Assembly: GCA_001412365.1 (NCBI GenBank)
Contig: LKUE01000243.1
Coordinates: 1-9,678, forward strand
Source: Desulfuromonas sp. SDB
GTDB taxonomy: Bacteria > SDB-A
Reading direction: 5' to 3'
DNA: 9,678 bases
A program made the translations under genes and the position numbers. Shown here piece by piece: positions 1,154 through 7,052 of the stretch (position 1 is its first letter; every line of letters starts with the position of its first letter). The notes beneath the pieces were generated by a model. That model saw only the letters and a list, made by a program, of their open reading frames with translations, did no database searches and was not told where the DNA came from.

Positions 1154-3448
1154 ATGGATCAAACTACTCTCTCCATCCTCGACTATTATACTCTTCTCCA
1201 CTACCTAAGTGAGAATTGTGGTTTAGAATATTCTAAACAAAAAGCATTAAATCTAGTCCCCGCAAATTGTTCCAGTGAGGTGGAGTATCAACTCCACCTC
1301 ACTGGAGAGTGGATAAAAATCAACGAGAAATATGATTTTTCTTTTTCAGGAATATGCAACTTCCAGGAGATTTACCAAAAAGCAATAAAGCAAGGTCAAG
1401 GATTTTCTCTTGATGACATCTATAAAATTGGGCAGATGATTCAACAATCCGATCAGATTATTGATTGTTCTAAAAATTGGGAAAAACAATATCCTCTCAG
1501 TGCTGATATTATAAATCAAATGCCAAATCTTAAATTAATTGAAAAAAAGATATTCAACGTCATTGATGAAAACAGACAGATAAAGGATCAGGCCACCCCT
1601 CATTTAAAAAAAATCCGCAGGCAAATTGCCCATCATCGTCAGTACCTATTAAAGCATGCTCAAAATTTAACTGAAAAATACAATCAATTTATACAGGAAG
1701 ATTTTACCACTCAGAGAAATAATCGTTTCGTAATTGCGGTAAAAACTGAAAATCAGAACAAAATTAAAGGAATAGTGCACGATGTATCGGAAACCGGAGC
1801 CACTGTATTCATGGAGCCTTTGGAGTTATTAAGCGATAATAACACCATGCAGAAACTGATTAAAGATGAACAATGGGAAATTAATAAAATTGTCACTGAG
1901 TTAACTACCATGATACAGCAGCATAGTCCTGACCTGGAAAATATTTTTGAAAACCTTATCCACCTGGACATTATTCGAGCCAAGGCAAAATTATCCAAAC
2001 AGATCCAGGGGGAATTACCTTCTCCAGGCCCACTTGATCTTCACCAAGCCAGACATCCTCTTTTGCTGTTGATGAAGGGTTTTGAAAATACAGTTCCTTT
2101 GGATATAAAATTTCCTCCTGGCAATCAGGGAATTTTGATAAGCGGTCCCAATGCAGGAGGAAAGACCATTGCACTAAAAACAGTGGGGCTGCTGATTTTG
2201 GCTGCTTATTCAGGCATCCATATACCCATCGGTCTTTCCTCTACGCTCCCTTATGACTTCACCGTAATTTGCGAAGGAGGGGACCAACAGTCCATTGAGT
2301 TGGATGTTTCTACTTTTACCGGCAGAGTCAAACGGTGGAATAAAATATTAAAATCAGCATCAACCGGATGTCTGGTGTTGATAGATGAAATTGGAAGCGC
2401 TACCGATCCTGATAAAGGTTCAGCTCTGGCTGCAGCATTAATTGATAAATTAATTGAACAGGGAGCTCTACTCATTGCCACCACTAATAACATAAAATTA
2501 AAAAAAGAAATTGAATCTGCAGAAAAAGCGATCAATGCTTCTATGGACATGGATCAAAACCTCTTTCAACCAACTTTTCATTTAACTATGGGCTTGCCCG
2601 GTTCCTCCTATACTTTCGAGATAGCTGAAAAATTCGGTATGGATAAATCAATAATCAACAGAGCCCGGTCCAGAATTTCACAAGATGATCAAAGCTATGA
2701 ACATTTAGTTGATCAAACCAAACTAACTCTTGGTCATCTTCAACAACAACAACAAAAATTAGAAGAGCAACTTCAGCAGCAGCAGAATATCAATGAGGAA
2801 TATCAGCAGAAACTAAGCAGATTAAACCAGCAGCAAACTGAATTTGAGCAATCCATTAAAATACAAAAAAAAGAAATATTAACTCAAGCCAGAAAAGAGG
2901 TGGAGAAGATTATCAAAGAAATACGCGAATCCCAAGCTCATCCTGATATAATTAAGAAAGCCAAGAAAATTCTGCATCCTCCTCCCCCCCCCAAGTCCGC
3001 TAAGCACAGTAGTAAAACCTTTTCCCCGGGAGATCAGGTATGGGTTATAAATTTAAATACATCCGGAAAAGTTTTACAAAAAAAAGAATTTCAGTACCAG
3101 GTTCAGGCAGGACCGATTAAGATACTTTGCCCCCCTGAAAATCTAACTCCCCATTCACCCAACTCCCCCCAGAGTAAAACCAAAGGAATAATATTTACCC
3201 AGCCCCGAGAAATCACCTCCACCCTGGACTTGAGAGGAAAAGACTCAGCAACTGCCGCTGAACAATTGATTAAGTTTTTAGATGACGCCCAGCTGGCTCA
3301 ATATCCAATGGTCACCATTATTCACGGCATAGGAACCGGGGTTTTAAAACAAACCGTAACTGAATTCTTAAAATACAGGAATTACCGCTTCAGTACTGCT
3401 GATCCTTCTCAAGGAGGGGCAGGAGCCACCCTGGTATTTTTAGATTGA
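1154..3448 (+). CDS. mutS2: MutS2 family ATPase with C-terminal Smr domain
   Basis: 764 residues. MutS2 proteins are homodimeric DNA- or ribosome-acting ATPases; they suppress recombination in some bacteria and rescue collided ribosomes in others, and do not perform classic mismatch repair. Seen here: core domain with GATVFMEP at residues 215-222; ARHPLL before the ATPase; Walker A GPNAGGKT at 331-338; Walker B LVLIDE with D411-E412; a long Gln-rich coiled coil (about 525-590); a Pro-rich linker; and an Smr nuclease-type domain with LDLRG (691-695) and HGIGTG (724-729). The length is typical. The ATG at 1154 is preferred over an in-frame GTG at 1028 because the upstream stretch overlaps rpsU and shows no family similarity; AAAGG lies at 1140-1144. 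Two ATPase positions deviate: GAGT is GSAT (Ala416) and TTHY is TTNN (Asn445). The neighbourhood with rpsU suits a translation-related role. Confidence 0.93.
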   Translation: MDQTTLSILDYYTLLHYLSENCGLEYSKQKALNLVPANCSSEVEYQLHLTGEWIKINEKYDFSFSGICNFQEIYQKAIKQGQGFSLDDIYKIGQMIQQSDQIIDCSKNWEKQYPLSADIINQMPNLKLIEKKIFNVIDENRQIKDQATPHLKKIRRQIAHHRQYLLKHAQNLTEKYNQFIQEDFTTQRNNRFVIAVKTENQNKIKGIVHDVSETGATVFMEPLELLSDNNTMQKLIKDEQWEINKIVTELTTMIQQHSPDLENIFENLIHLDIIRAKAKLSKQIQGELPSPGPLDLHQARHPLLLLMKGFENTVPLDIKFPPGNQGILISGPNAGGKTIALKTVGLLILAAYSGIHIPIGLSSTLPYDFTVICEGGDQQSIELDVSTFTGRVKRWNKILKSASTGCLVLIDEIGSATDPDKGSALAAALIDKLIEQGALLIATTNNIKLKKEIESAEKAINASMDMDQNLFQPTFHLTMGLPGSSYTFEIAEKFGMDKSIINRARSRISQDDQSYEHLVDQTKLTLGHLQQQQQKLEEQLQQQQNINEEYQQKLSRLNQQQTEFEQSIKIQKKEILTQARKEVEKIIKEIRESQAHPDIIKKAKKILHPPPPPKSAKHSSKTFSPGDQVWVINLNTSGKVLQKKEFQYQVQAGPIKILCPPENLTPHSPNSPQSKTKGIIFTQPREITSTLDLRGKDSATAAEQLIKFLDDAQLAQYPMVTIIHGIGTGVLKQTVTEFLKYRNYRFSTADPSQGGAGATLVFLD
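1271..1306. repeat. Perfect 16-bp inverted repeat (hairpin) inside mutS2
   Basis: Bases 1271-1286 are exactly complementary to 1291-1306, with a 4-base ATCA loop; the core arm is CCAGTGAGGTGGAGT. The stem is much richer in G and C than its surroundings. It sits at codons 40-51 of mutS2, about 145 bases after the rpsU stop. No T-run follows on either strand, so it is not a standard intrinsic terminator. It could be an mRNA processing or stability element between rpsU and the rest of the operon, or a site that slows ribosomes. The structure is certain; its role is inference. Confidence 0.8.
2984..2992 (+). repeat. C9 homopolymer tract within mutS2
   Basis: Nine consecutive C residues encode part of a five-proline run (codons about 610-613) in the linker between coiled coil and Smr domain. 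Two C6 tracts follow at 3130-3135 and 3165-3170. Long C runs are rare in AT-rich coding DNA. Gain or loss of one base would remove the Smr domain, so the tract is a potential slippage site; it may also be a sequencing-sensitive spot. Confidence 0.75.
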
Positions 3449-3452
3449 AAAA

Positions 3453-5093
3453 ATGGATCAAAATTTAATCGAAGAAATTTTAAATCGTCTTTCTCTAGTT
3501 GAAGTAGCTAGTGAATACCTCAAACTTACCCGAAGCGGCTCGGAATTTAAAGCCCTCTGCCCCTTTCATCAGGAAAAAACTCCTTCATTCACCATATCTC
3601 CGACCAAGAACTTGTATTATTGTTTTGGATGCGGAGCAGGAGGTAATCTCATAAATTTCATCATGGAAATGGAGAAATTGGACTTCAACCAGGCATTGGA
3701 ATTTTTAGCCAAAAAAGCAGGCGTTGAAATTACCGGCAAAAATTATCAAACCTGGGATAAATTGTATAAAATAATGGATCAAACTGCTGATTATTATCAT
3801 CGCTTATTAGTCAAAGGCTATGCACCTCAATACAGCCAATACCTTGAAAAGAGAGGAATTGATCAACAAATGATCAAAACATTTAAACTAGGTGCTGCAA
3901 TTAAAAAAGTAGTACCCAAATTTAAAGAAAAAAAAACGGATTTAGCTGATTTAGAGCAAGCAGGTTTAATTATTAAAAAACCACGGCAGACTGTAGAGAG
4001 GTTTTATGACCGGTTAATTTTTCCCATTTTTGATGTTAAAGGAAGAATTATCGCCTTAGGTGGAAGATCGCTGAAGGAAAATACTACCAAATATGTAAAT
4101 TCTCCTCAAACTCCAATTTACTCTAAAAATAGAACCTTATACGGTTTAAACATTGCTAAAAAGCACCTGGATAAAACAAGAAAAGTTTATCTAGTAGAAG
4201 GATACTTAGATCTGATTACCATGCATCAATACGGTTATCCTAATACCGTTGCCTCTTTGGGAACTTCACTGACCTCCAATCAAGCCACATTACTATCACG
4301 TTTTACCGATCAAGTAATCATCGGATACGACAATGATGCAGCAGGAATCAGAGCTACTCAAAGAGCGATATCAATATTGCTTAAACTGGGAATGGAAATA
4401 CTGGTACTAAACCTCGGAAAATACAAGGATCCCGACGATTTTTTAAGAAATAACTCATCCCCGGAAAATTTAAGCCAGCACAGTATTTCCTGGATTGATT
4501 TTATGTTCAATTTGAATCCATTGAATACTCCCGGAGCAAAAAAGAAATTTGCCCATCAAATTAAAGATTTACTATCGGATATTGATGATTCAGTGCTGAA
4601 GATAGAATGGAGTAAGCAAATAGCCTACCGGTTAGGATTAAATCCCAGTTATTTTTATACTCCGGCAAATGTAACAAACCATAAGAATTTGTCAAAACCA
4701 ATTATCAGCTCAGTGAAAAATTCGAAAAATACTGTTTTGACTTTGATAAAAGCGCTGTCCACACGGGATGATCACATCGGAGCGAAGGCAGTTAAATTTC
4801 TAAAGTCATTAAATTTAACCTCGCCGGATAATGAATTTGAGCCGGATTCCTCCCTTCTGGCTGCTTCCAGTCAAAGTTTAAACAAATTTATTCAGGCGGA
4901 GATAAGCAGGTTGGAATTTTGCGATACTGAACTAGCTGAAAAAAGCTTGCAAAAGTACATAAAAAAATACCACGATATGATTAAAAAAGAAAAATGCGAT
5001 CAAATACTTGATCAAATTCGTCAAGCTCAATTACAGGGAAAAGATACCAGGAAATTAGAAATTAAATTAGATAAAATTTTAAGGGAAAAATAG
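3453..5093 (+). CDS. dnaG: DNA primase DnaG
   Basis: 546 residues. DnaG makes the short RNA primers for replication and works at the fork with the DnaB helicase. The CHC2 zinc-binding domain is complete: Cys36, His39, Cys57 and Cys60 (CPFH and CFGC motifs). The catalytic TOPRIM domain shows VYLVEGYLD with Glu249, then YDNDAAG with Asp293 and Asp295 (usually DGD, here DND), and KDPDDFL as the third acidic cluster. The C-terminal 120 or so residues are Lys-rich and helical, fitting the helicase-interaction domain, which is poorly conserved in general. The protein is slightly shorter than the E. coli enzyme (581). The start codon lies four bases after the mutS2 stop and has no good ribosome binding site immediately before it (the nearest AGGAGG is 36 bases upstream), so translation is probably coupled to mutS2. 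Identification is firm. Confidence 0.95.
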   Translation: MDQNLIEEILNRLSLVEVASEYLKLTRSGSEFKALCPFHQEKTPSFTISPTKNLYYCFGCGAGGNLINFIMEMEKLDFNQALEFLAKKAGVEITGKNYQTWDKLYKIMDQTADYYHRLLVKGYAPQYSQYLEKRGIDQQMIKTFKLGAAIKKVVPKFKEKKTDLADLEQAGLIIKKPRQTVERFYDRLIFPIFDVKGRIIALGGRSLKENTTKYVNSPQTPIYSKNRTLYGLNIAKKHLDKTRKVYLVEGYLDLITMHQYGYPNTVASLGTSLTSNQATLLSRFTDQVIIGYDNDAAGIRATQRAISILLKLGMEILVLNLGKYKDPDDFLRNNSSPENLSQHSISWIDFMFNLNPLNTPGAKKKFAHQIKDLLSDIDDSVLKIEWSKQIAYRLGLNPSYFYTPANVTNHKNLSKPIISSVKNSKNTVLTLIKALSTRDDHIGAKAVKFLKSLNLTSPDNEFEPDSSLLAASSQSLNKFIQAEISRLEFCDTELAEKSLQKYIKKYHDMIKKEKCDQILDQIRQAQLQGKDTRKLEIKLDKILREK

Positions 5094-5201: not shown

Positions 5202-7052
5202 ATGGGTAGAAAGCCTAAGACCAGTAAATCAAAGTCTAGGGCCTCTAAACGGAAAAAGAGATTGGAAAATCTAAAAATGGTTATGGAGGAACAGAAATTT
5301 TTAGATATAGCCCAAAAAATCGAGATAGTGGCAAAAGCGAAGGAAAATGTGATTTCCTATCAGGAAATGAATAATCTTATACCTGAAACCTGGAATGATG
5401 AAAATATAATTGAAGGAATTTACGCCTTTTTAAAAAAACAAAAAATCACTGTAATCAACAGAAAACGTAAATATACCAAAAAATTAAAACTTACTAAAAT
5501 AGCTTCCATTCGGAATTTCGATGATCCCACCAAGCTGTACATGCAGGAATTAAAAAACACAAAACTAATGAGCAGGCAAGATGAAATTGATGTAGCCAAA
5601 GAGAAAGAATTAGCTGAACGTGAGATTGCAGAAACAATTTTTGCCACTTTACCCGGAATTGAAGCCCTCCTGGACATGGATGAAAACATTGCCAATGCTA
5701 AAAGTCAAAATGTGGGAGATTATTTAAAATTATTTTTCCCTCCGGAAGAAGAAAAAAATCCTCTATTTCCAATGAGATTCATCATCTGGAAAAAAAAGCA
5801 GTTTTTATTGAAAAATATTGAAAAAATTTCAAAAAAATACGACCAACTGAGAAAAACCAGAAGTAAAAGCGGCAAACAGAGATTTCTGGAGCAGATGAGT
5901 AAGATATTAGAACCTTACATTACCGGAGAGCCCAAGGGCAAATCAGACCAGCTGGAAGCCCTGGACCGCCTGCACATGAAGGTGGTGGAAAAATGTGTCA
6001 ATAATTTCACCGATACATTTGATTGTTTCATTGAAGTTAGAAAGCAGCAGGAAAAACTGTGGCAAGATTATCAATTTATAGTTAAATCTGATTACGAACC
6101 TCTTCCTGAAATATCATCGGAATGTAAAAAAGTGGTGATGAAATTAAAGAAAAAAATTACCAAGCGGTTGAGTAAGAGAAACCAGGAAAAAATTAAAATT
6201 GCCTTAGAAGAGTTAAGCTTGCTAACCAGGGAACTGAAAAATCTGGAAGATAAAAATATGCTCACCTATCCCATGCTCAAATCTATCTATCATTCCTTAT
6301 CCCTTTCCAATGCCCGAGTTAATGATGCTAAGAAAAAAATGATTGAAGCAAATGTGAGGTTGGTAATATCCATTGCCAGAAAACACAGTTACCAGGGTCT
6401 GGATTTTTTGGATTTAATTCAGGAAGGTAATGTAGGATTGATGAGAGCGGTGGATAAATTTGACTGGAGAAAGGGATATAAATTCAGCACTTACGCCACC
6501 TGGTGGATAAGGCAGGCTATCAGCAGAGCAATTGCCGATCAAGGCAGAACGGTACGGGTACCTGTGCACATGATAGAAGTAATGCATAAGGTGAGTAAGG
6601 AGATTGCTACTTTTCGGCAAAAAAACGGCAGAGATCCAAGTCCCGAAGAGATTTCTGATTCACTGGAAATCCCCATTGAAAAAATTTATGCAGTGTTCAA
6701 TGTGGGACAGGATACTGTATCCTTGGACCGACCCATTGGAGACAGCGACGATGCTTTATTCGGAGATTTCATCGAAGATGCCAAAGAAGATTCGCCTCTT
6801 CAGGTAGCGGCAAATGTTATGCTTGATGAAAGGCTAAAAGTAGTATTAAATACATTAACGGATAGAGAAAGAAAGGTATTGGAATATCGGTTTGGCTTGA
6901 TTGACGGCTGTCCAAAAACTTTAGAGGAGGTTGGTTTAATCTTCGGAGTAACCAGAGAAAGAATAAGACAAATTGAAACCAAATCCCTGAAAAAACTTAG
7001 ACTGAAAGCCAGATCAAAACAACTTGAACAATTTAGAGAGATGTCTGAGTAG
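5202..7052 (+). CDS. rpoD: Primary sigma factor (sigma-70, RpoD/SigA)
   Basis: 616 residues, close to E. coli RpoD (613). It directs core RNA polymerase to housekeeping promoters. Order of parts: a Lys/Arg/Ser-rich extension (1-25); a region 1.1-like segment (about 27-90); region 1.2 beginning [10 protein letters not shown] at 108; a charged non-conserved insert (about 145-370); region 2 (about 380-460) with [23 protein letters not shown] and the -10-reading Gln438/Ser441 (Gln437/Thr440 in E. coli); region 3 to about 540; region 4 with TLTDRER and the recognition helix VTRERIRQ, where Arg585, Glu586 and Arg589 match the -35-contacting residues. These indicate ordinary -35/-10 promoter use. 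A GGAGGG ribosome binding site at 5193-5198 supports the ATG. The basic N-terminus is odd, as region 1.1 is usually acidic. The stop codon is one base from the next start. Confidence 0.96.

Follow-up and report, generated by a model that had tools for sequence, protein, structure and literature searches.

In Escherichia coli operons whose 5'-most gene is stable, the 3' end usually lies directly after a stable hairpin that lacks a U tract, and 17 of 26 such ends lie within the gene downstream, 107 ± 56 nt into its coding sequence (PMC5927463, Dar and Sorek 2018). The unstable genes of E. coli operons carry fewer ribosomes (PMC5927463). In the cip-cel operon of Clostridium cellulolyticum, RNA is selectively processed and stem-loops stabilise it: those located on the 3' side of highly expressed genes fix the proportions in which the operon's products are made (PMC4423207, PMC10311766). 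The locus described here combines a hairpin that resembles these structures with a version of another well-known system, the rpsU-dnaG-rpoD macromolecular synthesis operon of E. coli (PMC10931766). It lies in a contig of Desulfuromonas sp. SDB, of which the whole stretch analysed (9,678 nt, hereafter the window) encodes on its forward strand rpsU, for ribosomal protein bS21 (937-1125; Pfam PF01165, E 1.5e-19), mutS2 (1154-3448; NCBIfam TIGR01069 mutS2, 666 bits), dnaG, the next gene of the probable operon (3453-5093; Pfam), and rpoD, for the main sigma factor (5202-7052; Pfam), followed by a gene for a PP2C-type phosphatase. The three genes of the E. coli operon are thus found in the same order, and the difference is the presence of mutS2 between rpsU and dnaG (PMC10931766).

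We compared this genome (G000) with three other genomes of the phylum (G001, G002, and G003), all belonging to one other genus, whose MutS2 proteins are 40-43% identical to that of the window. A Shine-Dalgarno-like AGGAGGTG precedes rpsU (919-926), and an AGGAGG-type site occurs upstream of rpsU in all four genomes. The position of the mutS2 ATG is the same in the three relatives, and no evident ribosome site for mutS2 was found in any of the four genomes. The gap separating rpsU from mutS2 has 28 nt (1126-1153), where neither a terminator nor an evident ribosome site was found, in agreement with the initial annotation, which had judged the two genes too close to accommodate a terminator. In E. 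coli a terminator is located after rpsU, and it has no counterpart in this gap. Further upstream, a promoter-like TTTACA-16-TATAAT (798-825), with 11 of 12 matches, is a candidate promoter of the operon; in the promoter scan as a whole, matches were no commoner than expected by chance. In the three relatives (L004, L005, L006), the spacer from rpsU to mutS2 has a small inverted repeat directly after the rpsU stop (for example, AAGCC-TTTC-GGCTT in G003 and ATCGTTT-CTTA-AAACGAT in G001), which is absent from the window.

Positions 1271-1306, inside mutS2, form a perfect stem of 16 bp closed by a loop of four bases (TCCAGTGAGGTGGAGT-ATCA-ACTCCACCTCACTGGA, -30.7 kcal/mol), exactly as the initial annotation had described, and this is the sole long perfect hairpin of the window. 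The 5' arm (1271-1286) covers codons 40-45 (SSEVE and the first base of Y), the loop occupies 1287-1290, and the 3' arm (1291-1306) covers the last base of Q46 and codons 47-51 (LHLTG), all on the forward strand. The coordinates confirm that the hairpin begins 145 nt past the rpsU stop, which is 117 nt past the mutS2 ATG (1154), so that it spans 117-152 nt into the gene. It is also richer in G+C than its surroundings, as had been noticed (53% vs 39% for the mutS2 gene), and the same holds at third codon positions (GC3 58% vs 36%). The arms are in codon-antisense register, with second codon positions opposite each other, and the facing codons specify Ser-Gly, Ser-Thr, Glu-Leu, Val-His, and Glu-Leu. 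The residues of the 5' arm are variable across the MutS2 family, V43 excepted, and L47, L49, and T50 in the 3' arm are invariant. The sequence downstream of the hairpin, GAGTGGATAAAA, has no T tract.

These features bring the hairpin close to the protective structures embedded in E. coli coding sequences, of the malEFG type (PMC5927463): it is stable and lies in the coding sequence that follows the 5'-most gene, at a depth (117 nt) near the mean of the E. coli cases (107 ± 56 nt), it lacks a U tract, and its downstream gene is, to judge by the ribosome-site context, apparently poorly translated. The operon is a different one, and the lineage is uncultured. The E. coli examples are also defined by RNA ends and half-lives (PMC5927463). 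The cip-cel stem-loops that were analysed are intergenic, with mapped processing sites (PMC4423207, PMC10311766), whereas the present hairpin lies inside a gene.

The initial annotation had held that such a repeat is very unlikely by chance, and this is borne out. Given the protein and the codon usage of the genome, perfect pairing has a probability of about 3e-8. When 467 ORFs of G000 (558 kb) were shuffled synonymously, no perfect in-ORF stem above 12 bp appeared; the real ORFs contain one of 16 bp and one of 14 bp. The 247-nt region folds with a z of -4.7 relative to dinucleotide shuffles, and 66-nt windows across the hairpin reach -8.7 relative to synonymous shuffles, the minimum of mutS2 in G000. 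We sampled coding windows from G000, G001, and G003; the G000 sample amounts to 577 kb, around one-fifth of the genome, and the other samples to a smaller share, all from draft assemblies in which ORF calling was mechanical and gave priority to the longest start. Among the G000 coding windows, the hairpin ranks first of 35,514 sixty-base windows by folding energy and first of 36,721 after correction for G+C. When the 150 windows of lowest energy are ordered by synonymous z, one, in ygiQ, falls below it.

We then have to ask what happens at the same codons in the relatives. The MutS2 of the window aligns with those of the three relatives without gaps up to residue 604, and none of the three has a perfect repeat at the orthologous site. 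Yet in G003, whose MutS2 is 43% identical, the orthologous codons form two hairpins side by side, one of 11 bp and the other of 10 bp, with a folding energy of -32.1 kcal/mol; they include G-U pairs and are made of pairs different from those of G000. This site has the minimum synonymous z of the G003 mutS2 (-5.6) and ranks first of 17,036 sampled coding windows by folding energy and first of 17,597 after G+C correction; two further windows of G003 lie below it when synonymous z is the only criterion. About 4 of the 17,597 windows lie no more than 22 nt from the orthologous site, and, assuming uniform placement, we estimate the chance of the G000-G003 coincidence at a few in ten thousand. Structure is hardly correlated between the two genomes in general (r 0.11 over 4,619 orthologous windows from 60 gene pairs), and the mutS2 site is the extreme joint outlier among these windows. 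In G001 the minimum synonymous z of mutS2 also falls at this site (-4.1), which by raw folding energy is only 370th of 13,995 windows. Its structure consists of the first of the stems seen in G003; the stems of G001 and G003 are therefore related, and only one independent coincidence exists. G002 has no structure at the orthologous site, and its synonymous z there is near 0. The initial annotation had named relatives with an intact mutS2 and no pairing in this segment as evidence against its proposal; G002, whose mutS2 is intact, supplies this part of the counter-evidence. We rejected the idea of a general MutS2 feature, since 26 MutS2 genes from other phyla show nothing special at the site: the minimum of the coding sequence falls there in two of them, where we estimate that about 0.7 would be expected.

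The place of the structure is thus kept while its base pairs are replaced between genera. The E. coli protective hairpins recur in relatives with conserved pairs (PMC5927463); here a structure was seen at the site in G003 and G001 and was absent from G002. The compensatory changes in the two arms that had been proposed as a check did not materialise, the arms not being conserved pair by pair. Pair-level covariation among the four sequences showed no excess over shuffles, whether based on the G003 or on the G000 structure, their consensus fold is weak, and conservation of synonymous sites shows no clear rise across the arms. A fixed place with pairs that turn over argues for selection on the mRNA. 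The strand on which the structure forms is informative in G003, where folding reaches -32.1 on the mRNA strand and -20.1 on its antisense, a bias that points to the RNA level; the two strands are nearly symmetric in G000 because the stem is perfect, and the bias of G001 is only slight. Some selected function of the hairpin in the mRNA is therefore probable. Regarding known classes, an intrinsic terminator is excluded by the absence of a T tract on both strands and of any terminator-like match at the site, and no Rfam RNA family had a match above its gathering score within the window.

Among such functions, we favour a cis-acting structure that would shield the rpsU message from decay, a reading to which we give an even chance, because the position of the hairpin, the missing U tract, the context of the ribosome sites, and the encoded nucleases (PNPase, RNase Y, RNase E/G, and RNase III) all fit it. 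The genes rpsU, mutS2, dnaG, and rpoD would be transcribed together, an endonuclease would cut the transcript somewhere in its mutS2 portion, which is apparently poorly translated, and the hairpin would block 3'-to-5' exonucleases. The rpsU message, now with its end at the hairpin, would be stable and accumulate as the mutS2 mRNA decays, which could allow bS21 to be made in excess over MutS2. The earlier suggestion of a structure separating rpsU from mutS2 expression thereby keeps the backing of the structures at the orthologous site in G003 and G001, of the sense bias in G003, and of the geometry, and loses that of pair-by-pair conservation. Stabilisation of the upstream rpsU fragment is, of the mechanisms listed in the initial annotation, the one that best fits the position and the absence of a U tract, with the unstructured site of G002 and the lack of pair-level covariation standing against it. 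Early hairpins are not a general trait of downstream operon genes in these genomes: we found no enrichment of them and rejected this possibility, a result that also counts against protection.

The strongest alternative is neutral. Polymerase template switching, in which one arm is copied from the other, is documented to turn quasi-palindromes of genes into perfect ones (PMC8604942, PMC8794818), and the repeats so perfected are, like this one, perfect inverted repeats with both arms coding. The 3' arm, with its more conserved residues, would have served as template for the 5' arm, leaving a functionless product. This is a possibility that we regard as rather unlikely, although several observations suit it: selection at the RNA level would tolerate G-U pairs and the stem is perfect, the 5' arm falls on variable and the 3' arm on conserved residues, and long perfect in-ORF stems in G000 exceed those of synonymous shuffles. 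Perfect palindromes with both arms coding also occur in protein-coding genes of nematomorph mitochondria, but there they are numerous and reach 284 bp, whereas here there is a single one of 16 bp and G003 is structured at the same place (PMC6649704). Template switching leaves unexplained why the top sampled coding structure of G003 falls on these very codons with different pairs, some of them G-U, and with a preference for the sense strand, and why the minimum of the G001 mutS2 is found there as well. It may instead be the route by which the stem became perfect.

Less plausible still is that the hairpin acts on mutS2 or on transcription, as an early brake on ribosomes, as an RNase III site, or through factor-dependent termination that lowers mutS2, dnaG, and rpoD. 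The conservation of place in G000, G003, and G001, the length and stability of the stem, and the presence of an RNase III gene are compatible with this, and the three variants share the evidence for rpsU protection, from which they would differ only in the step proposed. Yet translating ribosomes unwind stems, RNase III usually needs longer duplexes, which counts against a site for it at this stem, and G003 shows a pair of shorter stems and no long one. A particular form of such action starts from Bacillus subtilis MutS2, which splits collided ribosomes and carries DLR where the nuclease motif would read DxH (PMC10897456). The SMR domain of the window's MutS2 has the DLR and HGxG motifs of the splitting type. 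The hairpin could then be a roadblock at which MutS2 splits queued ribosomes and so limits its own synthesis as it rises; bS21 would tie into this scheme because, in the B. subtilis disome structure, the place of the MutS2 SMR domain would clash with bS21 (PMC10897456). We hold this to be very improbable, as nothing here favours it over mRNA protection. A DNA-level element, be it an operator, a recombination site, or an inserted palindromic repeat, is the least credible reading, despite a 36-bp dyad symmetric about four bases: the dyad is single in the 3.14-Mb genome, with no second one within three mismatches of its inner 24 bp, which rejects a repeated operator or a dispersed repeat, the gap-free alignment with the three relatives rejects an inserted palindrome, and in G003 the sense RNA strand folds much better than the other.

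If the hairpin does protect the rpsU message, differential decay set by a hairpin inside a downstream coding sequence, known from enterobacteria, would extend to a distant uncultured lineage, where it would act on an operon that links translation, replication, and transcription at the level of their initiation. Elements of this kind would persist by their place while their pairs change, and searches for pair-by-pair covariation would miss them.

Some additional observations concern the same genomes. In about the first 20 codons of mutS2, G003 and G001 (L004 and L006) use identical codons for 15 of 17 shared residues, vs 43% gene-wide, as if this segment were under extra constraint or had been recently exchanged. 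Strong hairpins of G000 include a perfect stem of 14 bp midway along a TIGR03279-like radical SAM gene (L108:3678-3712) and a hairpin in argS, 165 nt into the coding sequence (L048:8703-8762). Four perfect hairpins of 16-18 bp lie outside long ORFs in this genome (L066:2298-2337, L105:3183-3219, L084:13402-13440, and L091:2217-2254), most of them without a clear T tract. Finally, radical SAM genes of the ygiQ family have strong early hairpins in G000 (L111:12905-12964) and in G001 (L165:6369-6443), at nearly the same place and with different pairs, and the synonymous z of the G000 window (-7.7) is the lowest of the sample.
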